Shown piece by piece: positions 1 through 18,870 of a stretch of 64,000 nucleotides of DNA. A program made the translations under genes and the position numbers. Each line of letters starts with the position of its first letter. Positions within the stretch are counted from its first letter, which is position 1. Location of the stretch: positions 434,001 to 498,000 of the forward strand of contig JAIUPQ010000002.1 in NCBI GenBank assembly GCA_020161145.1. The letters run 5' to 3'. Origin of the DNA: Pseudomonadota bacterium. GTDB taxonomy: Bacteria > Pseudomonadota > Gammaproteobacteria > Burkholderiales > Burkholderiaceae_C. The notes below the pieces were generated by a model. The model was not told the DNA's origin and did no database searches. It was given only the letters and a program-made list of their open reading frames with translations.

Positions 1-26
1 CTCCGGTGGTGCTGCAGCAACCATGA
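1..26 (+). CDS. Tail of an upstream gene, probably the RND periplasmic adaptor (partial)
   Basis: An open frame enters from the left edge and reads P-V-V-L-Q-Q-P before a TGA at 24-26. The stop overlaps the ATG of the following RND permease in an ATGA arrangement, typical of translationally coupled genes in one operon. The permease normally follows a membrane-fusion (adaptor) gene, so this is the likely identity, but only about seven residues are visible and no domain can be recognised. Confidence 0.35.
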
Positions 27-3000
27 ATTTCTCGGCGCTCTTCATCCGCCGTCCGGTGATGACGGTGCTGCTCAACCTGGCCATCGTGCTGGCCGGGGTG
101 CTGATGTACCGCAGCATCCCGGTGGCCGCGCTGCCCAACTACGACACGCCGGTCATCAACGTTTCGGCCCGCCTGCCCGGCGCCAGCCCCGAGACCATGG
201 CCACCTCGGTGGCACTGACGCTGGAGAAACAGTTCCAGACCATTGCCGGCCTGGCCTACATCAGCTCCAGCAGCACGCTGGGCGAGACCTCGGTGACGCT
301 GGAGTTCGAGCCCGGGCGCGACATCGACTCGGCGGCGCTGGACGTGCAGGCCGCGCTGCTGCGGGCGCAGCGGCGGCTGCCGCAGGACATGACCGAGCTG
401 CCCTCGTACCGCAAGGTCAACCCGGCCGACTCACCCATCCTCTTCGTGGCGCTGGCCTCACCCGCGCTGTCGCCGTCCGACCTGCAGGACTATGCCGACC
501 ACCTGATCCTGCCCTCGCTGTCCACCATCAACGGCGTGGCCCAGGTGTTCACCTTTGGCTCCAAGCGCTATGCGGTGCGGGTCGAGGTGGACCCGGCGGC
601 GCTGGCGGCGCGCAACATCGGCTTTGACGAGTTGGCCACCGCGCTGCGCGCGGCCAACGTCAACACGCCGGTGGGCACGCTCGATGGGCCGGCCCAGTCG
701 CTGACGCTGCAGGCCAACCGCCAGTTGCAGGATGCGGCCGATTTCGCCCGCCTCATCGTCAGCGCGCCGGGCGCCACGCAGACGGTGCGGCTGGCCGACG
801 TGGCCCGGGTGCTGGACAGCCTGGAGTCCACCCAATCGTTCTCCACCCTCAATGGCGAGCCCACCATCACGCTGGCGGTGATGCGCCAGCCGGGCGCCAA
901 CACCGTGGCCGTGGTGGACGCCGTGCGCGCCGCGCTGCCGGCCCTGACCGCGCAGCTGCCGCAGAGCGTGACGCTGCGCACCGTCAACGACCGCTCGCTG
1001 TCGGTGCGCGAGGCGCTGCACGACGTGACGCTGACGCTGCTGGGCACCATCGTGCTGGTGGTGCTGGTGATGTTCCTCTTTCTGCGCCGCGTCACGGCCA
1101 CGGCGGTGCCGGCGTTGTCGCTGCCGGTGTCGCTGCTGGGGGCGGTGGCGCTGCTGGGCTGGCTGGGCTACAGCCTGGACAACATCTCGCTGCTGGGCCT
1201 GACCCTGGCCGTGGGCCTGGTGGTGGACGACGCCATCGTGGTGCTGGAAAACATCATGCGCCACATCGAGGACGGCGAGCCGCCGCTGACCGCTGCCTTC
1301 AAGGGCGCGCGCGAGGTGGGCTTCACCATCGTCTCCATCTCGCTGTCGCTGGTGGCGGTGTTCATCCCCATCTTCTTCATGCCCGGCGTCATCGGCCTGC
1401 TGTTCCACGAGTTCGCCGTGGTGGTGGGGTTGGCCATTGCGGTGTCGGCCTTTGTGTCGCTGACGCTGGTGCCCATGCTGGCCTCGCGCTGGATCGGCCC
1501 CGAGCATGGCCGCCATGGCGCCCTGGTGCGCGCCTTTGAGCGCGCCTTCGACCGCGTGCTGGCTGCCTACACCCGCACACTGGATGGGGCGCTGGCCCAT
1601 CGCGGGTGGGTGATGGGGGTGGCCGTGGGCACGCTGGTGGCCACGCTGGTGATGTTCTGGGCCATTCCCAAAGGCTTTTTCCCGCAGGAAGACCTGGGCC
1701 AGATCCAGGTCAGCGTCGAGGCCGGCGACGACACCTCGTTCGAGGCCATGGTGGCGCTGCAGACCCAGGTGGCCGAACGCCTGCGCAACCACCCCGCCGT
1801 GCGCACCGTCAGCAGCTTTGCCGGCAGCGGCAGCGGGCGCATGTTCATCAACCTCAAGCCGCGCAGCGAGCGCGCGCCCATGGCGCAGGTGCTCGACGAA
1901 TTCCGCCAGCAGGCGCGCCAGGTGGCCGGCATCAACATCTACCTCAACCCCATGCAGAACCTGCGGCTGGGTGGCCGCATCAGCCGCGCCCAGTACCAGT
2001 ACACGCTGCAAAGCGTGACCAGCGACGGGCTGGGCGACTGGGCCGACCAACTGCAGACGGCGCTGCGTGCCGACCCGCTGTTTCGTGACGTCAACTCCGA
2101 CCGCCAGGCCACCGGCCTGCAGGTGGACGTGCAGATCGACCGCGAGCGCGCCGCCACGCTGGGCGTGGCCGTGGCCGACGTGCGCTCGGTGCTGTACAGC
2201 GCGTTCGGCGAGCGCCAGGTCTCGACCATGTACCTGCCGGCCGACAGCTACGCCGTCATCATGCAGCTGGCGCCCGAGGCGCGGCAGGACGAAAGCGCGT
2301 TCGACCAGCTCTACGTGCGGGCGCGCAGCGGCCGGCTGGTGCCCGTCAGCGCGTTTGCCACCGTGGCGCGCAGCGTGGGCCCGACGGCGGTCAACCACGT
2401 CGGGCAGCTGGAGGCGGTGACGGTGAGCTTCAACCTCGCGCCCGGCGTCCCGCTGGGCGACGCCACCCGCCGCCTGGCGCGGATGCGCACCGAGTTGGGC
2501 ATGCCCGAGTCCATCATCGCCCGCTGGGGCGGTGACGCGGCCGTGTTCCAGAGCGCGCAGACCAGCCAGGTGGTGCTGCTGCTGTCGGCGCTGCTGGTGA
2601 TGTATGTGTTGCTGGGCGTGCTCTACGAGAGCTACATCCACCCGCTGACCATCCTGGCCGGCCTGCCGTCGGCGGCGGTGGGCGGGCTGGCCACGCTGAT
2701 GCTCTTCGGCCAGCCGCTGACGCTGATCGCCACCATCGGCATCCTGCTGCTGATCGGCATCGTCAAGAAGAACGCCATCATGATGATCGACTTCGCGCTG
2801 GCCGCCCAGCGCGAGCAGGGCCTGACCCCGCAGGCGGCCATCCGCGAGGCCTGCCGACTGCGCTTTCGGCCCATCATGATGACCACGCTGGCGGCCATGG
2901 CCGGCGCGCTGCCCATCGCCCTGGGCATTGGTGCCGGCGCCGAGCTGCGCCAGCCGCTGGGCCTGGCGGTGGTGGGCGGCCTGGTCTTCTCGCAGGCGGT

Positions 3001-3112
3001 CACGCTCTACATCACGCCGGTGATCTACCTGCTGCTGGACCGCTGGTCGGGCCGCGGGCCGCTGCCGCCCGAGACCGAGTTGATGGGCGAGGCGTCGCCG
3101 GCCAGGGGATAA
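23..3112 (+). CDS. RND efflux permease (AcrB/MdtC-like, HAE1 type)
   Basis: Inner-membrane proton/drug antiporter, the pump component of a tripartite efflux complex. At 1029 residues it has the usual length of the family. It begins with the classic N-terminal amphipathic segment and first membrane helix (IRRPVMTVLLNLAIVLAG), followed by a large periplasmic porter loop, then two sets of hydrophobic helices. The proton-relay Asp pair of helix 4 is present as D402-D403 in GLVVDDAIVVLENI. The start at 23 overlaps the stop of the upstream gene, so it belongs to an operon whose first part is outside the window. No outer-membrane channel gene follows. The substrate cannot be told from sequence. Overall similarity in style is to the MdtB/MdtC and MuxB/MuxC group. 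Confidence 0.9.
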   Translation: MNFSALFIRRPVMTVLLNLAIVLAGVLMYRSIPVAALPNYDTPVINVSARLPGASPETMATSVALTLEKQFQTIAGLAYISSSSTLGETSVTLEFEPGRDIDSAALDVQAALLRAQRRLPQDMTELPSYRKVNPADSPILFVALASPALSPSDLQDYADHLILPSLSTINGVAQVFTFGSKRYAVRVEVDPAALAARNIGFDELATALRAANVNTPVGTLDGPAQSLTLQANRQLQDAADFARLIVSAPGATQTVRLADVARVLDSLESTQSFSTLNGEPTITLAVMRQPGANTVAVVDAVRAALPALTAQLPQSVTLRTVNDRSLSVREALHDVTLTLLGTIVLVVLVMFLFLRRVTATAVPALSLPVSLLGAVALLGWLGYSLDNISLLGLTLAVGLVVDDAIVVLENIMRHIEDGEPPLTAAFKGAREVGFTIVSISLSLVAVFIPIFFMPGVIGLLFHEFAVVVGLAIAVSAFVSLTLVPMLASRWIGPEHGRHGALVRAFERAFDRVLAAYTRTLDGALAHRGWVMGVAVGTLVATLVMFWAIPKGFFPQEDLGQIQVSVEAGDDTSFEAMVALQTQVAERLRNHPAVRTVSSFAGSGSGRMFINLKPRSERAPMAQVLDEFRQQARQVAGINIYLNPMQNLRLGGRISRAQYQYTLQSVTSDGLGDWADQLQTALRADPLFRDVNSDRQATGLQVDVQIDRERAATLGVAVADVRSVLYSAFGERQVSTMYLPADSYAVIMQLAPEARQDESAFDQLYVRARSGRLVPVSAFATVARSVGPTAVNHVGQLEAVTVSFNLAPGVPLGDATRRLARMRTELGMPESIIARWGGDAAVFQSAQTSQVVLLLSALLVMYVLLGVLYESYIHPLTILAGLPSAAVGGLATLMLFGQPLTLIATIGILLLIGIVKKNAIMMIDFALAAQREQGLTPQAAIREACRLRFRPIMMTTLAAMAGALPIALGIGAGAELRQPLGLAVVGGLVFSQAVTLYITPVIYLLLDRWSGRGPLPPETELMGEASPARG

Positions 3113-7057: not shown

Positions 7058-7576
7058 CCGCCGCCACCCGGCGTGCCCCAGCGCCGTGACGGTGGCGATG
7101 TTGCGCTCGTAGATCTGCTCGGCCTCGGGGAAGGCCGCCACCGCCCGCGCGATGCTGGCCTCGCGCAGCAGGTGCAGCGTGGGGTAGGGCGCGCGGTTGG
7201 TCAGGTTCTCGGCGTCACCCGGCGCCGTGCCGGCAAACTGGTAGTCGGGGTGGAAGCTGGCGATCTGCAGCACGCCCTCGAGGCCCAGTTCGGTCAGCGC
7301 CTGATCGGCCACGTCCAGGAAGTCGTTGAAATCCAGGAAGTCGGTCAGCACCTGAGGGTGGATGAGCAGCGTGGTGTCGAGCTGCTCGGGGTCGGCTGCG
7401 GCCAGGTGCGTCAGCTCGGCCACCAGCTCGGCCAACAGCGCCTCGGGCGTGGTGGCCGTGCTGACCACATGGCGCACCTGGTCCTTGACCACCACGCCCT
7501 TGGCAAACGGGCAGAGGTTGAGGCCAATGACGGCCCGCTCCAGCCACTGCCGGGTGCGGGCCTCTTCCAGGCTCAT
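6998..7576 (-). CDS. DUF1415 domain protein of unknown function
   Basis: A 192-residue cytosolic protein. The start [20 protein letters not shown] and the following CPFAK motif match the DUF1415 family, which is widespread in proteobacteria and has no established function. The ATG at 7576 overlaps the TGA of hpd by four bases (ATGA), so it is probably translated by coupling to that gene. At its other end the coding sequence runs 60 bases into the convergent ubiB gene. The frame also stays open upstream through hpd in another register, but that is a shadow and not a fusion. Confidence 0.8.
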
Positions 7577-8658
7577 GCGCCGGCTTCGGCGGTCAGCGTG
7601 CCACGGCGGATCTGATCGCGCTCCAGCGACAGGAAGAGGGCGCGGAAGTTGCCTTCGCCAAAGCCCTCGTCGCCCTTGCGCTGGATGAACTCGAAGAACA
7701 CCGGACCCAGCAGCGTCTGCGAAAAGATCTGCAGCAGCAGGCGGGGCGAGCCGCCCTCGGTGGAGCCGTCCAGCAGGATGCCGCGCGTCTGCAGTTCGGA
7801 CACCGGCTGGCCGTGGCCGGGCAGGCGATCGGCCAGCATCTCGTAGTAGACGTCGTTGGGTGCGGTCATCACCGGCACACCGGCCATCACCAGCTTGTCC
7901 ACCGAGGCAAAGATGTCGTCCGTCAGCAAGGCGATGTGCTGGATGCCCTCGCCGTTGAACTGCATCAGGTACTCCTCGATCTGGCCGGCGCCGCCCTTGG
8001 CTTCCTCGTTGAGCGGGATGCGGATCAGGCCGTCGGGTGCCGTCATGGCCTTGCTGGTCAGGCCGGTGTACTCGCCCTTGATGTCGAAGTAGCGGATCTC
8101 GCGGAAGTTGAACAGGTGCTCGTAGAACTCGGCCCAGAACGCCATGCGGCCCCGGTAGACGTTGTGCGTCAGGTGGTCGATGATGGAAAAGCCGTGGCCC
8201 TCGGGGTGGCGCGGCACGCCGGGCAGCCATTCGAAGTCGATGTCGTAGATGGACTTGCCGTCTTCGAAGCGGTCGATCAGGTACAGCGGCGCGCCGCCGA
8301 TGCCTTTGATGGCCGGCAGCCGCAGCTCCATGGGGCCGGTGGGAATCTCGATGGGCTGGGCGCCCAGCTCCAGTGCGCGGGCATAGGCCAGGTGGGCGTC
8401 CTTGACGCGAAACGCCATGCCGCAGGCGCAGGGACCGTGCTCGGCGGCGAAGTAGCCGGCCAGGCTCTTGGGCTCGTTGTTGACGATGAAGTTGATCTGG
8501 CCCTGGCGGTACAGCAGCACCTGTTTGCTGCGGTGGCGGGCCACGAGCGAGAAGCCCAGTTGCTCGAACAAGGGCTCCAGCAGCCCGGGCTTGGGCGAGG
8601 CGAACTCGACGAATTCGAAGCCCATCAACCCCATCGGGTTCTCAAACAGATCGGCCAT
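7573..8658 (-). CDS. hpd: 4-hydroxyphenylpyruvate dioxygenase
   Basis: Fe(II)-dependent non-heme dioxygenase that converts 4-hydroxyphenylpyruvate to homogentisate in tyrosine catabolism. The 361-residue length fits bacterial enzymes. The three iron ligands can be placed as H162 (in [12 protein letters not shown]), H241 (in [13 protein letters not shown]) and E323 (in [14 protein letters not shown]), matching the H161/H240/E322 set of the Pseudomonas enzyme. The two-domain VOC fold is evident from the N-terminal half repeating the pattern without ligands. It is followed with overlap by the DUF1415 gene. No homogentisate dioxygenase gene is nearby. Confidence 0.95.
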
Positions 8659-8845
8659 GTGTGTCTCCAGTAGAAAAATAAATGGTGGTTCAGTGTGGGG
8701 CGGTACCGGCCCGTGGCGGTGCGCCCGGCCGCCCCCGCACGCTGCGCGCGAGGTGGTCGCCGAACACCAGTTGGTAGACGCAGGAACACATGGTGGGCGA
8801 TGTTAGCGCCGCCGCCATGGGGCGTGCCGGCCTCAGCGCGCTCGT
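8659..8845. other. Intergenic spacer between the TolC-like gene and hpd
   Basis: The spacer is 187 bases and lies downstream of the TolC-like gene's stop and upstream of hpd, both on the minus strand. It should contain the hpd promoter, but no convincing -35/-10 pair stands out beyond an A/T-rich patch at about 8667-8690. A 33-codon minus-strand reading frame is possible here but shows no protein-like features. Confidence 0.4.
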
Positions 8846-10219
8846 TCAGGGCGCCGCGGGCGGGGTGCTGGCGTCGTCCAGCGCGGCGAGCGCGGCAACA
8901 TCCAGCCGGTTGGCATAGGTCAGCAGCGTGAGGTGCGCCAGCCACTCCCGGGCGATCGCGTCGGCGTGGGCCAGCTCGATGCGGGCGGTGTCGGCCTCGG
9001 CGGCCAGCAGATCCAGCAGCGTGCGGTCGCCGGCCTGCAGACCGGTGCGGGTGGCGTCCAGCCGCGCGCGGCTGGCGACCAGGGCGTCCTGCATGGCGCG
9101 GGCGCGAGCGGCCTGCGCGCCTTGGCCGGCCCACTGCGCGCGCACCTGAGCGTCCAGTTGCTCGCCGGCCAGCGCGAGGCCGGCTTCGGCCTGGGCCAGT
9201 TCGCTGGCCGCCTGCTGGGCCCGGGCGCTGCGCACGCCGCCGTCGAACAGCGGCAGGCTGATCTGCACGCCCACGCCCCACGGCGTGGCGCGCTGGCTGG
9301 CCGCACCGAAGTCGCCGTTGCCCGAGAGGCGCTCCTGGCGCCATTCGCCCACTGCGTCCACGGCCAGTTGGGCGCCCGGCCGCTGGCCGCGCACGCCCTG
9401 GCGCGCCGCGTCCACGGCCAGGCGCTGGCGGGCGAGGTCGGGGCTGGCGGCGCGGGCGGCGGCCAGCCAGCCGGCCTCGTCGCCGGGGTCGGCCGGCTCG
9501 TTGCGCACACCGCGTGCAGGCAGCGCCGGCTGCGGGTCGGGCAGGCCGGTGAGGTCGGTCAGCGCCTCGCGGGCCAGCCGCGCCTGCGCGGCGGCTTGCA
9601 CCTGCTCGGCCTGCACCTCGGCCAGCGCGGCGGCGGCCTCATGGGTGTCGGTGATGGGCGTGCTGCCCACGCGGTAGCGCTCGCGCGCGGCATCGCCGGC
9701 GCGGGCCACGGACGCGTGTTGGCGCGCCAGCACCTGCGTGCGCTGGCGCGCCAGAGCCAGGTCCAGGTGGCGCTGGGCCAGCCGCAGCGCGGCTTGCTGG
9801 CGCGCGCCGTTCCATTGGTGCTGGTCGGCCTCGGCGGCCAGCCGCAGCTGTGCGGCCTGCGCGTCGCGGGCCGGGCTGTAGAGCCGCCACTGGGCTTGCA
9901 GCGCGGCGCGCGAGGCGTGGCCGTCCTGGATGCGGGTGTCCAGGCCCACGGGGCCGGTGAGCGGGCTGCCGGGCATCTCGAAGGCGCTGCCGCGCAAGGC
10001 GCTCTGCACGCCGCCCGCACCGGCCATGACGCTGGCCTGCGCGCTGGGCCGGTACAGGGCGTCGGCCTGCGCGCGGCGGGCATCGGCCATGCCGCGCGCG
10101 GCCTCGGCCACGGCCAGCGCGCGGTCGTGCTGCTGCGCGGCCTGCCAGGACTCGGCCAGCGTGGTGGCGCCGGCCAGCGTGGGCAGCAGGGCGGCGATCA
10201 GCAGCGCGCCGCAGTTCAC
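8846..10219 (-). CDS. TolC-family outer membrane channel protein
   Basis: Outer-membrane/periplasmic channel of a tripartite efflux system, 457 residues. An N-terminal signal peptide (CGALLIAALLPTLAGA) is followed by two repeats rich in Ala, Gln, Leu and Glu heptads that form the TolC helical barrel. The start is taken as GTG at 10219. This gives a four-base GTGA overlap with the stop of the AhpD-like gene and places the signal peptide at the N-terminus; the longer frame upstream is an overlap artefact. It is the last gene of the operon driven from 16376, supplying the exit duct for the RND pump encoded earlier in the operon. There is no lipobox, so it is not an OprM-type lipoprotein. Confidence 0.85.
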   Translation of the reverse strand: MNCGALLIAALLPTLAGATTLAESWQAAQQHDRALAVAEAARGMADARRAQADALYRPSAQASVMAGAGGVQSALRGSAFEMPGSPLTGPVGLDTRIQDGHASRAALQAQWRLYSPARDAQAAQLRLAAEADQHQWNGARQQAALRLAQRHLDLALARQRTQVLARQHASVARAGDAARERYRVGSTPITDTHEAAAALAEVQAEQVQAAAQARLAREALTDLTGLPDPQPALPARGVRNEPADPGDEAGWLAAARAASPDLARQRLAVDAARQGVRGQRPGAQLAVDAVGEWRQERLSGNGDFGAASQRATPWGVGVQISLPLFDGGVRSARAQQAASELAQAEAGLALAGEQLDAQVRAQWAGQGAQAARARAMQDALVASRARLDATRTGLQAGDRTLLDLLAAEADTARIELAHADAIAREWLAHLTLLTYANRLDVAALAALDDASTPPAAP

Positions 10220-10566
10220 GCGCGCGCTCCGCCAAAGTACTCGTAGGCGGCTATGGCCTCGGCGGCGTACATCAGCGCCGGGCCGCCGCCCATGTAGATG
10301 CACATGCCCAGCATCTCCTCAAGCTCGGCGCGCGTGGTGCCCAGCTTGACCAGCGCCTCGGCGTGGTAACCCAGGCAGGGGTCGCAGCGCGCAGCCACCG
10401 ACAGGGCCATGGCGATCAACTCCTTGGTCTTGGCGTCCAGCGCGCCGGGCTGGGTGGCGGCCTGGGCCAGCGCCGAGAAGCCGCGCGTGGTCTCGGGAAT
10501 GTCGGCGCGCAGTTGGCGCAGCAGGCCGCTGGTGCGGGCGGTGATGGCTTTGTAGTTTTTGTCCAT
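10216..10566 (-). CDS. AhpD-like carboxymuconolactone decarboxylase family protein
   Basis: A 116-residue all-helical protein of the CMD/AhpD family. It carries the full redox motif Glu-x11-Cys-x2-Cys-x3-His (E49, C61, C64, H68; sequence CDPCLGYH), the hallmark of members with thiol-disulfide or peroxidase activity rather than true decarboxylases. It lies between the DUF2892 gene and the TolC-like gene and overlaps the latter by four bases, so it is embedded in the efflux operon. A thiol-based detoxification role next to a sulfide:quinone-oxidoreductase-like protein is a reasonable inference; the substrate is unknown. Confidence 0.85.
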   Translation of the reverse strand: MDKNYKAITARTSGLLRQLRADIPETTRGFSALAQAATQPGALDAKTKELIAMALSVAARCDPCLGYHAEALVKLGTTRAELEEMLGMCIYMGGGPALMYAAEAIAAYEYFGGARA

Positions 10567-10600
10567 GTCAGCGCCGCCCGGCCGTTCCGAAGGCGCTGAC

Positions 10601-10640
10601 AGCCCCCGCGGGGGGCAGCGAACGAAGTGAGCGTGGGGGT
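10601..10640. repeat. REP-like palindromic intergenic repeat (copy A)
   Basis: A C5-GC-G6 palindrome at about 10603-10615 is followed by GCAGCGAACGAAGTGAGCG and a second G run. The same architecture (GCCCCC, short loop, GGGGG, then A/TAGCGA...GAG.G and GGGGG) recurs at 53643-53684 and 49467-49510. Here it sits inside an operon, between the DUF2892 and AhpD-like genes, where it could attenuate transcription or stabilise upstream mRNA. Confidence 0.6.
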
Positions 10641-10649
10641 TGGTTCATC

Positions 10650-10844
10650 TCAACATCCGGGTTTGAAGCCCAGCTTGCGCATGAGGGTTTCCATCAGGCA
10701 CCAGCGCGAGAGGCTGCTTTGCAGCAGGTTGGCGCCGACGAAGGCGGTGAACCACAGCCACGCCGGATGCACGTAGTGGGCCAGCGCCAGCGAGGTGAGG
10801 ATGAACACGCCTGCGATGAGGCGCACGACTTGCCAGGAGGTCAT
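10650..10844 (-). CDS. DUF2892 (YgaP-type) small inner-membrane protein
   Basis: A 64-residue protein with two hydrophobic segments (about 8-24 and 28-45) and the short basic tail typical of DUF2892. The same module forms the membrane part of the rhodanese YgaP. The ATG at 10844 overlaps the stop of the flavoprotein gene by four bases, so the two are coupled. DUF2892 proteins are often found beside sulfur-handling genes (sulfide:quinone oxidoreductases, rhodaneses, persulfide dioxygenases), which fits this neighbourhood. The biochemical role is unknown. Confidence 0.8.
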   Translation of the reverse strand: MTSWQVVRLIAGVFILTSLALAHYVHPAWLWFTAFVGANLLQSSLSRWCLMETLMRKLGFKPGC

Positions 10845-12139
10845 GATGGAGTTCCTTTGGAGTGGGGGGTGATGAGGCGCGCAATGCCCAGCGCCTTGAG
10901 CACGTGGCGTTCGTAGACGGGCTCGCTGGTGCCGCTGCGCAGCTTGTGCATGAAGTACTTCTCGAACGCGATCTTGGCCAGGTGCACCCACTTGCCCTTC
11001 TTGAACCAGTTGACGTTGCGCGGCGGGATCTGGGGCAGGGCGATGAAGGCGGCGCCGGTGTTGCCCATGTCGGCCAGGCAGATCGCATTCCAGGTGCCGC
11101 TGGCGGTGGCCGGCTTGCCGGCCAGCTCGGCGGCGATGTTGTGGGCGATGGCCGTGACCATGGTCTCGATCATGTAGCCCGTCTTGGGTGCGCCGGTGGC
11201 CACGGGTGTGCCCTCCACGGGCGGGATGGCCACGCAGACGCCGGCCGACCAGATGGTGGGGTAGGCCGTGCTGCGCTGGTACTCGTCGATCAGCACGAAG
11301 CCGCGCGGATTGGTCAGGCCGGGCACGGCCATCAGCGGCTCGATGCCCTTGAACGCGGGCAGCATCATCGCCAGCTTGAACGCCACGGCGTGCTCGCGCC
11401 GGGGCTGGCCCAGGCCATCGAGCTCGGTGGCGTGCAGCACACCGGGCTCCACACGGGTGGTTCTGGCGTTGGTCACCCACTTGATGTCCTGGTTGCGCAG
11501 GTCGCTCTCCAGCATGGACTTGCTGTCGCCCACGCCGCCCAGGCCCAGGTGGCCGATGTAGGGCTCGCTGGTGACGAAGGTGATGGGCACTTTGTGGCGC
11601 AGCTTGCGCTTGCGCAGATCGGCCGCCAGGATGAACGCGAACTCATAGGCCGGACCGAAGCAGCTCGCGCCCGGCATGGCGCCGACGACGACGGGGCCCG
11701 GGTCTTGCAAAAAGGCCTGGTAGTCGCGCCAGAACGCGGCGGCATGGTCCACGGTGCAGACCGAATGCGTGTGGCCGCCATGCGGGCCGCTGCCCGGCAC
11801 CTCGTCGAACGCCAGGCGCGGGCCGGTGGTGATCACCAGGTGGTCGTAGGCCAGCGTCTGCCCGTCGGCCAGCGTCAGGCGGTGGGTCTGGGCGTCCAGC
11901 GCGGTCATCGCCTGCGGGATGAAGGCGATGTGCTTTCGGGCCAGCAGCGGGCCGATGGCGAGCTTGACGTCGGCGGCCTGGCGCCAGCCCACCGCCACCC
12001 AGGGGTTGGAGGGCACGAACTGAAAGTAGTCCACCGCGTTGACGACGGTGATGCGGTGCTGGGCGGGCAGCGCCTCGCGCAGCTCGTAGGCCGCCGGCAT
12101 GCCGCCGATGCCGGCGCCGACGATGACGATGTGGGCCAT
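10841..12139 (-). CDS. Sulfide:quinone oxidoreductase-like FAD flavoprotein
   Basis: A 432-residue FAD-dependent oxidoreductase. It opens with the dinucleotide-binding motif IVIVGAGIGGMPAAYEL and then the SQR-type stretch FQFVPSNPWVAVGWR. The cysteines needed for sulfide oxidation in the SQR family appear conserved: C128 (HSVCTVDH), C160 (GASCFGPAYEF) and a third in the C-terminal third (C354 in NAICLADMG, with C302 as alternative). The family transfers electrons from sulfide to the quinone pool while building persulfide at the periphery of the inner membrane. It begins 35 bases after the RND permease stop and overlaps the DUF2892 gene. This places an SQR-like enzyme inside an efflux operon. 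Sulfide as substrate is inferred, not shown. Confidence 0.82.
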   Translation of the reverse strand: MAHIVIVGAGIGGMPAAYELREALPAQHRITVVNAVDYFQFVPSNPWVAVGWRQAADVKLAIGPLLARKHIAFIPQAMTALDAQTHRLTLADGQTLAYDHLVITTGPRLAFDEVPGSGPHGGHTHSVCTVDHAAAFWRDYQAFLQDPGPVVVGAMPGASCFGPAYEFAFILAADLRKRKLRHKVPITFVTSEPYIGHLGLGGVGDSKSMLESDLRNQDIKWVTNARTTRVEPGVLHATELDGLGQPRREHAVAFKLAMMLPAFKGIEPLMAVPGLTNPRGFVLIDEYQRSTAYPTIWSAGVCVAIPPVEGTPVATGAPKTGYMIETMVTAIAHNIAAELAGKPATASGTWNAICLADMGNTGAAFIALPQIPPRNVNWFKKGKWVHLAKIAFEKYFMHKLRSGTSEPVYERHVLKALGIARLITPHSKGTPS

Positions 12140-12174
12140 GGTGGGGGTCTCCTGTTGTGGTGATGGCAAAGACG

Positions 12175-15100
12175 TCAAGCCGACTGGCCGCGCCGGGCCA
12201 TGAAATACAGCAGCGGGATGACCACCAGCGTCAGCACGGTGGAGACGGCGATGCCGAAGACCAGCGAGATGGCCAGACCGTTGAAGATGGGGTCGTCCAG
12301 GATGAACAGCGCGCCGGTCATGGCCGCCAACCCCGTCAGCACGATGGGCTGCGCCCGCGCGATGGCCGACTGCAGGGTGGCGCGTGCCAGGGGCACGCCC
12401 TGCCGCAGTTGCAGGTTGACGAAGTCCACCAGCAGGATGGAGTTGCGCACGATGATGCCGGCCAGCGCGATCATGCCGATCATGCTGGTGGCGGTGAACG
12501 GCGCGCCCAGCAGCGCGTGGCCCGGCATCACGCCGATGAGGGTGAGCGGAATGGGGGCCATGATGATCAGCGGCGTCAGGTAGTTCTTGAACTGCGCCAC
12601 CACCAGCAGGTAGATCAACACCAGGCCCACGGCGTAGGCGGCGCCCATGTCGCGGAACGTCTCGTAGGTGATCTGCCACTCGCCGTCCCACTTGAGCGCG
12701 TAGCCCCGATAGGGGTCGGCGGGCTGGGTGATGAAGTGCTCGGCGATGGGCTGGCCGTCGGGGGCGGTGAGGGCGGCGATGGCGCGGCGCATGGCGAACA
12801 GGCCGTACAGCGGGCTGTCGGCACGGCCGGCCATGTCGCCCACCACGTAGCTGACCGGCAGCAGGTCTTTGTGGAAGATGGGCTCCTCGCGCTGGCCCTC
12901 GCCCACGCGCACCAGCTCGCGCAGCGGCACGTTCTGGCCCGCCGCGCCGGGCACGTGCAGGTTCAGCAGCGTGCCCAGCCGGCCCTGGTCGCGGGCGTCG
13001 AGCTGCAGCCAGGCCGGCATGGGCGTGCTGCCGGGCACGTGCAGCCAGGTGGCGCTGCGCCCTTGCAGCGCGGTGGCCAGCGTGTCCACCACCGCCGCCT
13101 GCGGCACGCCCAGCAGCGCGGCCTTGCGGCGGTCCACGGTCAGCATCACGCGCGGCGCGGTGTCGGGGTGGGAGCTGTCCACGTCCACGATGCCCTCGGC
13201 GCCCGCGAAGACCTGGCGCACGGCGGCGGCCACGGCGCGGCGGCCATCGGCGTCGGGGCCGTAGATCTCGGCCACGATGGGCGCCTGCACCGGCGGCCCC
13301 GGCGGCACCTCCACCACCTTGAGCCGCGCGCCGTGGCGGCCGGCAATGGCTTGCAGGGCCGGGCGCTCGCGCAGCGCGATGGCGTGGCTCTTGAGCGCGC
13401 GCTCGCCCTTGGGCTTGAGGTTGACCTGCAGGTCGCCCAGCTCGGTGCTCTGGCGGCCGTCGTACTGGCGCACCAGGCCATTGAAGCTGATGGGCGCGGC
13501 CGTGCCGGCATAGGCCTGCCAGTCGGCCACCTCGGGCACGGTGGCCAGGTGGGCGCCCAGCTCGGCCAGCACGGCAGCGGTCTGCTCCATGGGCGTGCCG
13601 GGCGGCATGTCCACCACCACCTGGAACTCGCTCTTGTTGTCGAAGGGCAGCATCTTGAGCACCACCAGGCCGGTGGCGGGCAGCAGCAGCGAGACGGCGA
13701 TCAACCCCAGCACGCCCAGCCCCAACACTGCCCGTGCGCGGCCTGAGGTCAGCAGCGGCGCGAAGAGGCGCTCGAAGTGCGGTGCCAGGCGTTGCGAGAA
13801 ATCGAACCCCGCATGTCCACTGGGGGCGCGCATCCAGCGCCGCGCCAGCCACGGCGTGATGACGAAGGCCACTGCCAGCGACAGCAGCATGCCCATGCTG
13901 GCGTTGATGGGGATGGGCGCCATGTATGGCCCCATCAGGCCCGACACGAAGGCCATCGGCAGCAGCGCGGCGATGACGGTGAAGGTGGCCAGGATGGTGG
14001 GGCCGCCGACCTCGTCCACGGCGGGTGGAATCAGCTTGGCCAGCGACATGTTGGGGTGCATCGCCACATGGCGATGGATGTTCTCCACAACGACGATGGC
14101 GTCGTCCACCAGGATGCCGATGGAGAAGATCAGCGCAAACAGCGACACGCGGTTCAACGTGAAGCCCCAGGCCCAGGAGGCGAACAGCGTCGCCGCCAGG
14201 GTCAGCACCACGGCGGCGCCCACGATGGCGGCCTCGCGCCGGCCCAGCGCCAGCAGCACCAGCAGCACCACCGAGGCGGTGGCAAAGCCCAGCTTGGTGA
14301 TGAGCTGCACCGCCTTGGCGTTGGCCGTCTCGCCGTAGTTGCGGGTGACGGCGACCTGCACGCCGTCGGGGATGGCGGTGTTCTGCAGCGCCGCCACGCG
14401 CGCCTCGAGCTCGCGCGCCACCGTGATGGCGTTGGCGCCGGGCTTTTTGGTCAGCGCCAGCGTGATGGCCGGCTGGCCGTCGTACCAGACCGATGCCTTG
14501 GGCGTGGGTGCGCCGTCGTGCACGGTGGCCACGTCGCCCAGCGCGATGGGCTTGCCGGCGTGGGCGCCGACGATCAGCGCGGCCACGTCGTCGGCGCTGC
14601 GCAACACGTCGCCCACGTGCACCTCGATCGCCTGGTTGCCGGCCACCAGTTCCCCCACCGGCTGGCCGAGGTTGGCGCTTTGCAGCGCGCCTCCCAATTG
14701 CGCCAGCGTCAGGCCCGAGGCGGCCAGCCGCGTGCCGTCCACCGCCACGACCACGGCGCGCCCCGGATCGCCCGTGACCAGCACGTCGCGGGTGCCGGGC
14801 ACGCGCTTCAAGTCACCGGCGATGCTCTGGGCGACCCGGCCGAGCGCATAGGCGTCCGTCAGGGTTGGCGCGGCGTCGCCTTGTGGCCGCGAGCCATGCA
14901 GCGTCAGCGCCACGATGGGCACGTCGGCGATGCCCTTGGGCTTGAGCAGCGGCGGCAACACCCCCAGGCCCGGCGGCAGCCAATCGGCATGTGCCTGCAC
15001 GGTGTCGTTCAGGCGCACCAGCGCCTCGGTGCGGGGCACACCCACCTTGAACTGCACGGTGATCACGGCCACGCCGGGGCGCGAGACCGACGTCACGTGC

Positions 15101-15357
15101 TCCACGTCCGCCATCCGCGCCAGCACGCGCTCGGCCGGTGTGGTGACCAGCGCAGCCACGTCCTCGCTGCTGGCGCCGGGGAAGGGCACGATGACGTTGG
15201 CCATGGTCACGTCGATCTGCGGCTCTTCTTCGCGCGGCGTGACCAGCACGGCGAACACGCCCAGCAGCAGCAGCGCCAGCGCCAGCAGCGGGGTGATGGC
15301 GGCGTCCTGGAACGCCGCGGCCAGGCGCCCGGCAATACCCATCCGGGTGCCGCTCAT
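12175..15357 (-). CDS. RND family efflux permease
   Basis: A 1060-residue inner-membrane pump with the RND layout: a first helix (TPLLALALLLLGVFAVLV), large periplasmic domain, helices 2-6, second periplasmic domain and C-terminal helices. The helix-4 Asp pair is D418-D419 ([12 protein letters not shown]). The EEEPQID segment just after helix 1 and the low overall resemblance to AcrB separate it from the other two RND pumps in this window. The ATG at 15357 overlaps the stop of the adaptor gene by four bases; a second Met at residue 6 is also possible. It is followed by the SQR-like flavoprotein gene, suggesting a substrate linked to reactive sulfur or an electrophile. Confidence 0.9.
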   Translation of the reverse strand: MSGTRMGIAGRLAAAFQDAAITPLLALALLLLGVFAVLVTPREEEPQIDVTMANVIVPFPGASSEDVAALVTTPAERVLARMADVEHVTSVSRPGVAVITVQFKVGVPRTEALVRLNDTVQAHADWLPPGLGVLPPLLKPKGIADVPIVALTLHGSRPQGDAAPTLTDAYALGRVAQSIAGDLKRVPGTRDVLVTGDPGRAVVVAVDGTRLAASGLTLAQLGGALQSANLGQPVGELVAGNQAIEVHVGDVLRSADDVAALIVGAHAGKPIALGDVATVHDGAPTPKASVWYDGQPAITLALTKKPGANAITVARELEARVAALQNTAIPDGVQVAVTRNYGETANAKAVQLITKLGFATASVVLLVLLALGRREAAIVGAAVVLTLAATLFASWAWGFTLNRVSLFALIFSIGILVDDAIVVVENIHRHVAMHPNMSLAKLIPPAVDEVGGPTILATFTVIAALLPMAFVSGLMGPYMAPIPINASMGMLLSLAVAFVITPWLARRWMRAPSGHAGFDFSQRLAPHFERLFAPLLTSGRARAVLGLGVLGLIAVSLLLPATGLVVLKMLPFDNKSEFQVVVDMPPGTPMEQTAAVLAELGAHLATVPEVADWQAYAGTAAPISFNGLVRQYDGRQSTELGDLQVNLKPKGERALKSHAIALRERPALQAIAGRHGARLKVVEVPPGPPVQAPIVAEIYGPDADGRRAVAAAVRQVFAGAEGIVDVDSSHPDTAPRVMLTVDRRKAALLGVPQAAVVDTLATALQGRSATWLHVPGSTPMPAWLQLDARDQGRLGTLLNLHVPGAAGQNVPLRELVRVGEGQREEPIFHKDLLPVSYVVGDMAGRADSPLYGLFAMRRAIAALTAPDGQPIAEHFITQPADPYRGYALKWDGEWQITYETFRDMGAAYAVGLVLIYLLVVAQFKNYLTPLIIMAPIPLTLIGVMPGHALLGAPFTATSMIGMIALAGIIVRNSILLVDFVNLQLRQGVPLARATLQSAIARAQPIVLTGLAAMTGALFILDDPIFNGLAISLVFGIAVSTVLTLVVIPLLYFMARRGQSA

Positions 15358-16376
15358 CGCACCCGCGCCGGTTGGGTGACCACCTGCTCGCCGGCGGCCA
15401 CGCCGGCCAGCACCTCGACCTCCTGGCCCATGGCGCGGCCCAGCCGCACCTGGCGCAGCAGCGGGGTGCCCGTGGCCGGCTGCACGTAGACGGCGGTGAG
15501 CTCGCCGCGCCGCACGATGGCGGCGGCCGGCACCGCCAGAGCCGGCGTGGCGGCGGCGGCGCCGGGCAGCGCCAGCCGCGCGAACTGCCCCGGCACCAGC
15601 CCGGTGCCGGCCGGCAGCGTGGCGCGCACGGTCTGCGTCAGCGAGCGGGCATCGACGGTGGGCAGCAGCTCCACGCGCGTGGGCGTGAACGTCTGCTCGC
15701 CCACGTGCAGGCGCAGCTCGGCGGCGTGGAACGCCTTGGGCAGCGCGGTGGCGGGCACGGCTGCGGTCACGCGGAGCACGGCTGGGTCGTAGAGGGTGAG
15801 CAGCGGCTGGCCGGGCAAGGCCATGTCGCCCACGGTGGCCGGCACGCTGGCGACCACGCCGGCAAACGGGGCGCGCAGCACGCCCAGGTCGCTTTGCGTG
15901 CGCGCGGCGCCGGCCTGGGCGCGGGCGGCGCGCAGCGCGGCCTCGGCGGCGGTGTGCTGAGCCTGGGCCTGCTCCAGCGCGGCGCGGCTCAGGTAGTTCA
16001 GCGTCGCCAGCTGCTCGCGGCGCCTGAGCTCGGCGGCGGCCACGCCCACCTGGGCCTGGGCGGCGGCCACCTGCGCGGCCTGGGCGGCGGCGCCTTGTTC
16101 GGCGGCGCGCGCGTCGATGCGGGCCAGCACGGCGCCGGCCGCGACGCGCTCGCCCGGCCGCACCGGCAGCGCCAGCACGGCGCCCGGCACCTGCGGCGCG
16201 ATGGCGGCCGCGCGCTCGGCCTCGACCACGCCCTCATGCGCGGTGGTGGCGGCGCCGGCGAGCACCCGCACCGGGGCGGTGGGCAGAGGGGCGGACGGCG
16301 CGGCCCAGCCGGGCGCGGCCAGGGCGGCGGCCACGGCCAGCAAGCTGAGGTGGATGGGGAAAGCGCGCGGGTGCAT
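15354..16376 (-). CDS. RND efflux periplasmic adaptor (membrane fusion protein)
   Basis: A 340-residue adaptor with an N-terminal signal peptide (LSLLAVAAALAAPGWA), a lipoyl/hairpin region rich in Ala-Gln heptads (about 90-150) and beta-barrel and membrane-proximal domains. It bridges the RND pump and the outer-membrane channel. The ATG at 16376 is preferred over an in-frame upstream ATG because it gives the signal peptide and lies outside the operator. A TAGAGT -10-like hexamer (16384-16389, minus strand) ends seven bases before it, so the mRNA may be leaderless. It is the first gene of a six-gene operon divergent from the ArsR-type regulator. Confidence 0.87.
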   Translation of the reverse strand: MHPRAFPIHLSLLAVAAALAAPGWAAPSAPLPTAPVRVLAGAATTAHEGVVEAERAAAIAPQVPGAVLALPVRPGERVAAGAVLARIDARAAEQGAAAQAAQVAAAQAQVGVAAAELRRREQLATLNYLSRAALEQAQAQHTAAEAALRAARAQAGAARTQSDLGVLRAPFAGVVASVPATVGDMALPGQPLLTLYDPAVLRVTAAVPATALPKAFHAAELRLHVGEQTFTPTRVELLPTVDARSLTQTVRATLPAGTGLVPGQFARLALPGAAAATPALAVPAAAIVRRGELTAVYVQPATGTPLLRQVRLGRAMGQEVEVLAGVAAGEQVVTQPARVR

Positions 16377-16383
16377 GGGTTCC

Positions 16384-16412
16384 ACTCTATCTGTATTTGC
16401 GCATATGCGCAA
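16384..16412 (-). promoter_or_regulatory. Predicted promoter of the efflux/SQR operon
   Basis: On the minus strand TTGCGC (16407-16412) and TAGAGT (16384-16389) are separated by 17 bases. The -35 and most of the spacer lie inside the 26-bp palindrome, the arrangement expected for repression by the adjacent ArsR-type protein. The -35 matches the consensus only in its first three bases. Confidence 0.5.
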
Positions 16413-16417
16413 ATACA
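16392..16417. promoter_or_regulatory. Perfect 26-bp palindrome, probable ArsR-type operator
   Basis: The left arm TGTATTTGCGCAT (16392-16404) is followed at once by its exact reverse complement (16405-16417), a perfect palindrome without a loop. It lies between the divergent adaptor and ArsR-type genes, 15 bases from one start and 20 from the other. It resembles the A/T-flanked GCGCAT-type dyads bound by winged-helix ArsR/SmtB dimers. The local A/T content is unusual for this GC-rich DNA. It likely controls both directions. Confidence 0.8.
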
Positions 16418-16437
16418 AATTAACTTACACTGGCGCC

Positions 16438-16788
16438 ATGGCCTCAGACTCCCTGCCCGTGGCGGCGCTGGAACAAATCGCGCTGTACTTCCAGGCGCTT
16501 TCCGAGCCCACGCGGCTGCACCTGCTGCGGCTGTTGCGCGACAGCGCCGAGCACAGCGTGGGCGAGTTGGCCGAGTTGATCGGCACCAGCCCGGCCAATG
16601 CGTCGCGCCACCTCTCCATGCTGTGCCAGCACGGCTTTGTGGCGCGCGAGAGCCGGGGCAACGCGGTTTATTACCGCGTCGCCGACGAGTCGGTCTACGA
16701 GATGTGCGACGTGGTCTGCGGCCACATTGCACGCCGGCTCGAGGCGCTGCAACGGTCTTATGCGCCGGCCGTGCGCCGGCGCGCCTGA
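16438..16788 (+). CDS. ArsR/SmtB family winged-helix repressor
   Basis: A 116-residue dimeric DNA-binding protein. The wHTH spans about residues 12-85 (ALSEPTRLHLLRLLRD, recognition helix SPANASRHLSMLCQHG, wing ARESRGNAVYYRV). It lacks the ELCVCDL metal site of classical ArsR/SmtB. The cysteines are C63 at the end of the recognition helix and C90/C94 in the last helix (YEMCDVVCGHI), so a thiol or metal sensor using C90/C94 is possible. The known persulfide sensors SqrR/BigR use a different pair. Start: ATG at 16438, with TACACT ending six bases before it and no Shine-Dalgarno. It probably autoregulates and represses the divergent efflux/SQR operon. Confidence 0.85.
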   Translation: MASDSLPVAALEQIALYFQALSEPTRLHLLRLLRDSAEHSVGELAELIGTSPANASRHLSMLCQHGFVARESRGNAVYYRVADESVYEMCDVVCGHIARRLEALQRSYAPAVRRRA

Positions 16789-16802
16789 GCATCCAGCCCG
16801 GT

Positions 16803-18299
16803 TCAGTCTGCCGGCACGAAGCTGCCGTGAAACCCCAGCGGCAGCGCATAAGGCAGCACCGCCTGGGCCAGCGGGCCGTCGGCCAGGTGGGCGGCATCCA
16901 ATAGGTTGAGCACGGTCGCCTGGCGGCGGGCGTCGAAGTGGGTGGCCAGCAGCCAGGCATCCAGTTCGCCGCGTCCCCCGGGCTTGGGCACCCAGACGGG
17001 CTCCTCGGTGACGGCGTGGTCGCCCATGTCCACGCGCTGCGTGCGGCCGCTGTCCAGGTCGGTCAGCTGCCAGCCATGGAAGAGGTCTTGCGGGCGGTGG
17101 CGCCAGGCCGCGGCGGTGCTGACCCAGCGCTGGCGCAGGCCCACGCGCGCGGGGTGCACGCGCGGGAACTCCATGTCGAACGGCTCGCCGTGCACCTGGA
17201 TGCGGCCGCTGGCCAGATGCAGCCGGCAGTGCAGCAACTGCGGATCGGCAGTGGGTTGCCGGGGCAGGGCGGCCATCAGCGCGGTGGCGCCGTCGTTGAG
17301 AAAGTCCAGACCGCGCCCGCCGATGAAGCTCAGTGCGACCTCGCCCGGCCCGGCATCCCAGGCATTGGCCACGTGGAAGACCATCTGCGCCGGCAGCTCG
17401 AAACGCCATTGGCGGCTGAGGTCGGCCTTGTCGATCACCAGCAGCGTCAGCGGCCGGCCCGGCTGCATGGCAAAGCGGCGGGCGCCGCCGTCGGGCGTGG
17501 GCCCAAAGCTCAAGGGTGCCAGCGGCGGCAGCGGCACCACCAGGTGGCGCTCGGTGATGGCCATGTCGTGCACCAGGCCGCCCACCTCGGGCACGCGCAG
17601 CACCTGGGCCTGGGCCAGTTGGCCGTCGGGTGCCAGATGCCAGACGAGGAGGGTGCCGGGCATGCTGCCGATGTTCCACAGATGGCCTTGCGCGTCCACC
17701 TTGGGGTGGGCACTGAACGGCGTGCCCTTGAGGTCGGCGCGCCAGGTGACGGGGCCGATGGTTTCCAGGGTGGCGGCATCCAGTTCATGGGCGGAGCCGC
17801 CCTCCCACAGCGCCAGCAGCCGGCCGGCGTGGGCCACCACATGGGTGTTGGCGGTGTTGGCGCCGTCGGGGCCGGTCAGGGGCAGGGTGTCTTCGATGTA
17901 GGTGCCCAGCACCGGCACGGCCAGGCGGCCGGCGGCGCGCTCGCGCGCGAGCTTGGTGGTCTGGACCAGCCGGCCCAGGTGGGTGACCTGGCCATCGCCC
18001 AGGCTGTAGCGCTGCACCATGCCGTCGCCGTCGAACCAGTGGCGGTAGCGCTCGCCGGCGCGCGCCATCAGCGCCGGGCCGTTGCGGTAGAAGTGGCCGC
18101 GCAGCGCGGCCGGCCAGCGGCCACGCAGCAGTGCGGTGGCGCTGGGCGCGGCGCCGTCGGCCACGCCCAGAAACGGTGTGCGCAGCGGGTCGGCGGCGAT
18201 GCGTGCGCGCACCGTGGCGTCGTCCAGCCCGCGCGCGGCGCCGGCCAGAGGCGCCAGCAGCGGGGCCGCGCCGGCGGCCAGCAGGTGGCGGCGCTTCAT
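16803..18299 (-). CDS. Carotenoid oxygenase (RPE65/lignostilbene dioxygenase) family protein
   Basis: A 498-residue seven-bladed propeller Fe(II) dioxygenase that cleaves a conjugated C=C bond in carotenoids or stilbenes. The four iron-binding histidines are visible: H198 (FSAHPKVD), H244 (GLVHDMAI), H309 (MVFHVANAWD) and H491 (LGFHGSF). The N-terminus has a twin-arginine-like signal ([21 protein letters not shown]), which suggests export of the folded metalloenzyme, unusual for this mostly cytosolic family. The ATG at 18299 overlaps the stop of the DUF2141 gene by four bases. The substrate (apocarotenoid, stilbene or lignin fragment) cannot be told. Confidence 0.88.
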   Translation of the reverse strand: MKRRHLLAAGAAPLLAPLAGAARGLDDATVRARIAADPLRTPFLGVADGAAPSATALLRGRWPAALRGHFYRNGPALMARAGERYRHWFDGDGMVQRYSLGDGQVTHLGRLVQTTKLARERAAGRLAVPVLGTYIEDTLPLTGPDGANTANTHVVAHAGRLLALWEGGSAHELDAATLETIGPVTWRADLKGTPFSAHPKVDAQGHLWNIGSMPGTLLVWHLAPDGQLAQAQVLRVPEVGGLVHDMAITERHLVVPLPPLAPLSFGPTPDGGARRFAMQPGRPLTLLVIDKADLSRQWRFELPAQMVFHVANAWDAGPGEVALSFIGGRGLDFLNDGATALMAALPRQPTADPQLLHCRLHLASGRIQVHGEPFDMEFPRVHPARVGLRQRWVSTAAAWRHRPQDLFHGWQLTDLDSGRTQRVDMGDHAVTEEPVWVPKPGGRGELDAWLLATHFDARRQATVLNLLDAAHLADGPLAQAVLPYALPLGFHGSFVPAD

Positions 18300-18715
18300 T
18301 GCGACATCACCACGGTGACCGGCGCATCGCCCACCTGCACCTGGGCCTTGGCCCAACTGGGGCCAAAGGCGGCGCTGGCGCCGCTGCTGCCCCAGGGTTC
18401 GGTGGGCATGCCCATGGCGTTGCGGCCCATGCGGCTGTCGCCGTCCAGGTCCTGGTACAGCAAAAAGGCCAGCGGCCCGTCCGCCGGCAGGTCGCACAGG
18501 TTGACCGTCTGGCGCGGCGCGCTGCCGGCGGCCACGGCCACGGCGGCCACCGGTTTGCGGGCAAAGTCGGCCTCGCTGGCGTAGGCGGCCACATAGAGGG
18601 TGCCGGCGGCGGGGCGCACGCCGTCCACGTCCAGCGCGGCGCAGCGGCCGGCCTGGGCGGCGGGGGCGGCCAGCGCGGCGGCCAGGGTCAGAAGGGGCAG
18701 GGTCAGGCGGGTCAT
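18296..18715 (-). CDS. DUF2141 domain secreted protein
   Basis: A 139-residue protein with a signal peptide ([19 protein letters not shown]) followed by a beta-rich DUF2141 domain ([37 protein letters not shown]). The Asp-rich LDGDSRMG turn is typical and may bind a cation. Its function is unknown. The start MTRLTLP at 18715 is chosen because it begins the signal peptide; the frame extends a few codons upstream. It is translationally coupled to the carotenoid oxygenase gene, and both products appear to be exported, so they probably act together in the periplasm. Confidence 0.8.
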
Positions 18716-18870
18716 CGGGGGTTCCTCGTCGGGTGGCAAGAGGTTTCATGCTGCGCGGGTCGGCTGCTGCAGGCCAGCGCGTTGCGACCAAGCCAGATGG
18801 CGGCGGCGCCAATGGCGGTGGGGCGTCGCCAATGGGGCGCCAGGCGCGCTATGCTGGCCGCTCGCCGGGG

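Follow-up and report, generated by a model that had tools for sequence, protein, structure and literature searches.

An RND efflux operon with an optional sulfide:quinone oxidoreductase in Burkholderiaceae_C, a candidate sulfane-sulfur-responsive module

The operon Dsui_3440-3443 of Azospira suillum PS is among the described systems closest to the locus treated here, in which an RND (resistance-nodulation-division) efflux pump and a sulfide:quinone oxidoreductase (SQR) share one operon beside an ArsR-type gene. The Azospira operon is made up of an unknown protein, a cation/multidrug efflux pump, an SQR, and an RND adaptor. Bar-seq drew attention to it, and its expression is high during H2S oxidation; a separate DUF2892 gene, Dsui_0042, is ~10-fold higher under the same conditions (available text of PMC5358917). 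A 2025 paper, in its accessible part, places RND pump genes among the neighbours, and likely targets, of sulfane-sulfur-responsive ArsR genes (PMC12423496). The present locus lies in a stretch of 64,000 nucleotides, called the window, from a Pseudomonadota bacterium of the Burkholderiaceae_C (assembly GCA_020161145.1, contig JAIUPQ010000002.1, positions 434,001 to 498,000). The first-pass annotation of this DNA stated that no described system has the full composition of the operon; the H2S-induced operon of Azospira and the RND genes beside ArsR genes make that statement too strong.

The operon of the window encodes a periplasmic adaptor, an RND permease, a TolC-type channel, an SQR, a DUF2892 protein, and an AhpD-family protein (Table 1). 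It rather likely forms a sulfane-sulfur-responsive detoxification and efflux module. The first-pass idea of a single module holds insofar as the SQR and a tripartite pump are packed beside a regulator and the arrangement is conserved elsewhere with sulfur genes. It needs amending in that the SQR is only an optional member. The core is composed of adaptor, RND permease, and DUF2892, often with a sulfur-type regulator and with changing accessories, because the pump module with DUF2892 persists where no SQR adjoins it.

A recurrent pump module with an optional SQR

The family sample is composed of 200 genomes, 47 of which (the window's included) have a close SQR, and up to 8 kb per side were fetched for all 47. 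An RND gene of the same clade as the window pump is present in 29/47 of these loci (window included), always on the SQR strand, and DUF2892 lies within 3.2 kb of the RND gene in 26. A second set comes from a genome_contigs search, where the best 80 of 588 confirmed relatives were taken and 13 duplicates dropped. Among the 67 remaining loci, 41 have the clade RND gene, all on the SQR strand. Outside the family, an SQR (E <=1e-100) was detected in 83 of the ~386 genomes sampled from the phylum, and 40 of the 83 loci were fetched. The clade RND gene is present in 22 of these 40, split evenly between the SQR strand (11) and the opposite strand (11). Chance adjacency of RND and SQR is ruled out by this recurrence in many genomes.

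The two genes also co-occur at the level of whole genomes. In the family, 43/47 SQR genomes have the clade RND gene vs 48/153 of the others (Fisher p 7e-14), and beyond the family the counts are 72/83 vs 88/~303; both comparisons ignore kinship. For each genome, no more than 3 (family) or 2 (phylum) RND candidates entered the scoring, and the phylum denominator of 386 is approximate. Coordinates are listed for 62 of the 72 beyond-family genomes, where RND and SQR are <=10 kb apart in 38 and on the same contig in 41. This gene-order search and co-occurrence count had been proposed as a check by the first-pass annotation, and the order is not unique to the genome of the window. The exact order is also observed in L122 and L138 (family sample), and in L065 and L101.

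Members of the same SQR clade fall into further arrangements. The second architecture (L044, L083, and others) runs adaptor-RND-SQR-DUF2892, followed by OsmC and/or a CsoR-family gene, and some of its loci add a metallo-beta-lactamase/rhodanese protein. In a third group, the SQR lies beside DsrC-, DsrM-, and DsrK-like genes, and the pump is not in the stretch (L045, L048, L063, L072, L092, L112, L139). Recurrent sulfur partners near the module are rhodanese, OsmC, the CsoR-family regulator, the metallo-beta-lactamase/rhodanese protein, and DUF2892. The metallo-beta-lactamase/rhodanese protein resembles GloB and Blh, under both cut-offs, and is a putative persulfide dioxygenase.

Forty further clade-RND loci (L223-L262) do not adjoin an SQR. 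Of these, 26 are from genomes in which SQR was undetected and 14 are from genomes with an SQR elsewhere. DUF2892 is near the pump in 33/40, and an ArsR of >=45% identity is present in 21. At least one gene for rhodanese, OsmC, AhpD, a CsoR-family protein, or metallo-beta-lactamase, on either strand, is found at 28/40.

A quick RND tree separates 47 clade rows from 10 other pumps of the genome (SH-aLRT 100), a split helped by the preselection of rows by similarity. The tree holds <=14 rows per beta group, and its long outgroup branches are flagged. Within the beta branch, SQR-adjacent and non-adjacent members are intermixed, and the starred branches force at least six changes. This mixing makes repeated gain, loss, or relocation of the SQR next to one and the same pump probable.

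Regulator, operator and sulfur proteins

The ArsR of the window has three cysteines, Cys63, Cys90, and Cys94, the last two forming a Cys-x3-Cys motif. Among 54 orthologues of >=45% identity (window included), Cys90 is kept in 54/54 and Cys94 in 53/54 (the exception is L099), and Cys63 is unique to the window. The alignment took in 44 of the 54 orthologues. From this alignment and the general topology of ArsR proteins, Cys90 and Cys94 are predicted to lie in the last helix. Assignment of the window protein as a two-cysteine sensor of the SqrR/BigR type was considered and rejected, with 31.1 bits against the NCBIfam BigR model NF040642 (cut-off 155) and no cysteine at the ILC site.

Other regulators are found beyond the family. 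The scan there covered 8 of 14 ArsR-type hits from SQR loci; for all eight, the BigR model is the best or second-best match (62-92 bits, under the cut-off of 155 but far higher than the 31.1 bits of the window protein), and each carries the two cysteines of SqrR/BigR at the corresponding positions. Among the six unscanned hits, one in L185 has no cysteine and that of L197 is without the second. Three regulator types therefore adjoin the same pump clade: the Cys-x3-Cys ArsR, the BigR-like ArsR, and the CsoR-family protein.

Between arsR and the adaptor gene lies the palindrome TGTATTTGCGCATATGCGCAAATACA, perfect over 26 bp as the first-pass annotation had it. No other perfect palindrome of the 64 kb exceeds 18 bp, so this one is longer by 8 bp. 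The palindrome is probably the ArsR operator. Its 22-bp core is single in the 3.5-Mb genome with <=3 mismatches allowed, and no second repressor target was found in that search. This suggests a switch that acts locally and regulates itself. Half-sites ATTTGC-N8-GCAAAT are present upstream of 10/54 ArsR orthologues (window included), and 20 mononucleotide shuffles gave no dyad common to more than one region, kinship being ignored. Upstream of the remaining orthologues, dyads that are related but not identical occur in some regions, and a clear dyad is missing in many.

The flavoprotein, originally described as SQR-like, is indeed related to SQR, and the qualifier was too cautious. It is a true SQR homologue of the Acidithiobacillus ferrooxidans class: residues 2-423 align with the solved A. 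ferrooxidans SQR 3sz0 (563 bits), and SQR 3hyv matches with 358 bits. Cys128, Cys160, and Cys354, all present as the first-pass annotation claimed, each align with a Cys in 3sz0 and are taken here to be the catalytic cysteines. Cys128 and Cys160 are kept in 154/154 SQR loci (67+47+40, window included) and Cys354 in 153/153 aligned; three weak SQR-like matches at loci L223-L262 are excluded from these counts. A second, divergent SQR-like flavoprotein gene follows soon after the SQR in L059 (9343-10476), L098, L099, and L147. In L235, a divergent SQR-like flavoprotein gene follows TolC.

Two small proteins accompany the SQR. DUF2892 has one invariant cysteine, Cys49, which is found in 122/122 aligned loci (window included). 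The AhpD-family protein matches the solved AhpD 5dik (127.9 bits) and carries the motif Glu49-x11-Cys61-x2-Cys64-x3-His68 noted in the first pass. This motif is present in 29/29 relatives of >=45% identity, window included. Such relatives occur in a minority of stretches (11/67, 8/47, 3/40, and 7/40 loci). Elsewhere in the genome, three SoxY matches are found (contigs C2 and C11), and from these the organism may oxidise thiosulfate as well.

Pump class, cargo and rival explanations

The window pump has two traits of multidrug (HAE-type) permeases, the ACR_tran domain PF00873 and Asp418-Asp419. It is under the cut-off of all 15 NCBIfam families listed for the pump. Against the multidrug models NF033617 and NF000282 (cut-off 1250), it reaches 458 and 331 bits. 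Its closest solved relatives are MdtB, MexK, and 6vej. Asp-Gly or Asp-Ala at the Asp-Asp site is the motif of heavy-metal (HME-type) RND permeases, and three other pumps of the genome have one or the other there. Asp419 is kept in 127/129 clade rows, with Gly in two.

A further residue sets the clade apart. Arg971 is present in 133/133 aligned clade rows (71+22+40), and the same site in 8 other aligned pumps of the genome is Lys in 5, Leu in 2, and Glu in 1. Lys at this site is presumably the later proton-relay motif, corresponding to AcrB Lys940. HAE-type permeases are expected to have this Lys, and the pump clade has Arg971 instead.

Of the two partners of the permease, the adaptor clears the model for RND adaptors in general (Table 1). 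The channel passes PF02321 and scores 148.7 bits against the stricter TIGR01844, below its cut-off of 225. The absence of Cys from the window pump was considered as a sign of reactive-sulfur cargo and dropped as weak, since nine of the ten other pumps hold 0-2 Cys (full frames).

As cargo, the first-pass annotation proposed a polysulfide, a thiolated compound, or a toxic metal-sulfur complex. The metal-sulfur option is disfavoured because the heavy-metal RND signature is missing, and an organic thiol, persulfide, or polysulfide fits the sulfur neighbours.

The following sequence of events is proposed for the sulfane-sulfur module. In the resting state, an ArsR dimer would occupy the 26-bp operator and block both its own gene and the operon, as the position and symmetry of the palindrome suggest. 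During sulfide oxidation, with sulfane sulfur (persulfide, polysulfide) accumulating, Cys90 and Cys94 would be modified and the repressor released. The SQR, judged by close homology, would oxidise sulfide and pass the electrons to quinone. DUF2892, with its one invariant Cys, and AhpD, with its redox CxxC, may handle sulfane sulfur or reduce its by-products. The adaptor-RND-TolC assembly would then export a product of sulfide stress, the likeliest being a sulfane-sulfur species or an organic thiol/persulfide adduct and not a metal ion.

Several points weigh against this proposal. The cargo of the pump is its weak point, and both the cargo and the ligand of the sensor are predicted. At the ILC site of SqrR/BigR, the window ArsR reads LLR and its relatives ILN, so that the first sensing cysteine is missing. 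No RND gene is in the stretch at 18/47 family SQR loci; four of these RND-less loci (L135, L153, L158, L164) end at contig borders and show other module genes, and several others are in dsr-type clusters. Beyond the family, 18/40 SQR loci are without the clade RND gene in the stretch, and in 24/62 genomes the listed RND gene is >10 kb away (3) or on a different contig (21). Both other sampled genomes of the window's genus (2/2) have the RND gene and no SQR. The Azospira operon, which shares with the window a pump, an RND adaptor, and an SQR in one operon (a likeness in described composition), adds to these points. The H2S oxidation rate was unchanged after deletion of the Azospira SQR or of the whole operon, and the available account gives no pump phenotype (PMC5358917). 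The deletion result implies that sulfide oxidation in Azospira does not depend mainly on this operon, and it fits detoxification better than energy gain.

The strongest rival, though on balance unlikely, is that of a general stress pump. Sulfide damage would induce a multidrug-type pump that removes endogenous toxic organic compounds, and the SQR would act separately, so that the two share a regulator and not a substrate. The Asp-Asp motif of multidrug pumps, the relatedness to MdtB, MexK, and 6vej, and the frequency of pump modules without SQR (26 of the 40 non-adjoining loci) are consistent with this explanation. Moreover, control of multidrug efflux, MexAB for instance, by MarR-family sulfane-sulfur sensors has been reported (available text of PMC11211675 and PMC8614764). 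The sulfur-handling genes at 28/40 of the loci not adjoining an SQR and the clade's own invariant Arg971 argue against it.

Efflux of metals or metal sulfides is distinctly improbable. Here the ArsR would sense a thiophilic metal or metalloid through Cys-x3-Cys, and the pump would export metal ions or metal sulfides. Metal sensing is the classical role of ArsR proteins, and the model that recognises the window protein, NF033788, is named 'metalloregulator'. Metal sulfide export is what the Azospira authors propose for their pumps (available text of PMC5358917). The pump itself argues otherwise, with 226 bits against the CzcA/CusA heavy-metal model TIGR00914 (cut-off 701) and with Asp-Asp at the diagnostic site, though 2/40 clade rows are Asp-Gly; identity as a heavy-metal pump was rejected on these two grounds. 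The adaptor is likewise under the CzcB/NccB cut-off (124.8 vs 319.3 bits), and a neighbourhood with rhodanese, OsmC, and SQR gives no hint of metal resistance.

Least plausible of all is a defence against organic peroxides or reactive electrophiles, answered by AhpD, OsmC, and the CxxxC repressor with the SQR recruited for protective sulfane sulfur: AhpD and OsmC, families with peroxide/thiol roles, are present, but AhpD is found in a minority of stretches and so stands outside the core, and at sister loci the type of regulator, CsoR-family or BigR-like, speaks for sulfur.

The sulfane-sulfur reading can be taken a step further, tentatively and with more doubt than confidence. The clade may represent an unnamed RND subfamily, with Arg in place of the relay Lys, that is dedicated to sulfane-sulfur export. 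Its Burkholderiales branch would be switched by a new Cys-x3-Cys class of ArsR sulfur sensor, whose two cysteines, four residues apart, would take the role of the two distant ones in SqrR/BigR, and SQR, rhodanese, OsmC, AhpD, and persulfide-handling enzymes would serve as interchangeable feeders.

Locus layout and comparison with known systems

The seven-gene layout given in the first-pass annotation, six minus-strand genes and a divergent plus-strand arsR, agrees with the coordinates of Table 1. Its remark that most genes overlap by four bases is accurate for three of the five junctions (10216-10219, 10841-10844, and 15354-15357). The remaining junctions leave gaps, 35 nt between RND and SQR and 83 nt between DUF2892 and AhpD.

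Table 1. Features of the operon and its regulator in the window
Feature	Position	Strand	Evidence and remarks
ArsR/SmtB-family repressor, 116 aa	16438-16788	+	NF033788 81.6 bits (cut-off 55); divergent from operon
26-bp perfect palindrome, probable operator	16392-16417	no strand	within 61-bp arsR/adaptor gap
RND periplasmic adaptor (MFP)	15354-16376	-	TIGR01730 162.6 bits (cut-off 94.9)
RND permease, distinct clade	12175-15357	-	PF00873 505 bits; Asp418-Asp419, Arg971
SQR, 432 aa	10841-12139	-	563 bits to A. ferrooxidans SQR 3sz0
DUF2892 / YgaP-like transmembrane protein, 64 aa, Cys49	10650-10844	-	PF11127 41.5 bits (cut-off 25.3)
AhpD-family thiol-redox protein	10216-10566	-	TIGR00778 49.6 bits (cut-off 27.8)
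TolC-type outer membrane channel, GTG start	8846-10219	-	PF02321 108.4 bits (cut-off 22)

The longer gap, 10567-10649, can form GC-rich hairpins, one of which ends directly before the ahpD start codon. Its folding has a z of -1.7, and 13/200 shuffles are equally stable. In relatives with the same order, the distance between the DUF2892 and AhpD BLAST matches is 16-34 nt in L122, L101, and L138, and 80 in L065. A 21-nt word from the spacer has six further sites in the genome with 2 mismatches. No RNA element reaches the Rfam gathering score within 8000-17500. No consensus sigma-70 promoter was found within 8600-16900, a result that is uninformative, as 0.4 would be expected by chance.

A 4-hydroxyphenylpyruvate dioxygenase gene (7573-8658) lies on the same strand, 187 nt past tolC. 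Beyond arsR, an RPE65-family gene (16803-18812), presumably of the carotenoid oxygenase type, and a DUF2141 gene (18296-18739) are found on the minus strand. The true start of the RPE65-family gene is probably further in, since its long frame overlaps the DUF2141 gene. At the left edge of the window (23-3112), there is another RND permease, near the ACR_tran profile (1020 bits).

Compared with the window, the Azospira operon differs in order, as its locus numbers would give adaptor-SQR-pump-unknown, the order also seen in L116. ArsR was not found in the available text of the Azospira paper, and AhpD and TolC are not named there for the operon (PMC5358917).

The SqrR operon of Rhodobacter capsulatus and the BigR operon of Xylella resemble the window in placing an ArsR-family repressor over SQR or persulfide enzymes. 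Their sensors use two distant cysteines (accessible part of PMC12423496); in the window ArsR, the first is absent and Cys90-x3-Cys94 is found. The two types of locus meet beyond the family, where BigR-like ArsR, DUF2892, and clade RND genes are found together at SQR loci.

MexR/MarR-controlled efflux provides a further parallel. As proposed for the window, the repressor reacts with sulfane sulfur via cysteines, according to the available reports, and unlike in the window it belongs to the MarR family. To our knowledge, the MexR/MarR-controlled efflux operon has no SQR, and the cst operon of Staphylococcus aureus has no RND pump. The cst operon (CstR, CstA, CstB, and SQR) brings a sulfur sensor, an SQR, and persulfide enzymes together at one locus (available text of PMC9995734), and the second architecture described above also has a CsoR-family gene.

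A full-text literature search, with subscription papers mostly outside it, returned no description of a Cys-x3-Cys ArsR or of persulfide export by an RND pump. The papers on Leptospirillum, Allochromatium, Ferrovum, and Cupriavidus that it returned do not mention the operon of the window in their available text. Relative to the literature so covered, the pump clade, which spans the phylum and is marked by Arg, the optional SQR, and the Cys-x3-Cys repressor with its operator go beyond what is in print. An RND exporter of reactive sulfane sulfur is not established in that literature, and the present clade, with its SQR, DUF2892, and sulfur-type regulators, is a concrete candidate. The Cys-x3-Cys repressor would add another control of the same pump clade, besides the BigR-like and CsoR-family regulators. 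Should the Azospira operon prove homologous, its strong response to H2S, together with its dispensability for H2S oxidation, would find an explanation in the module.

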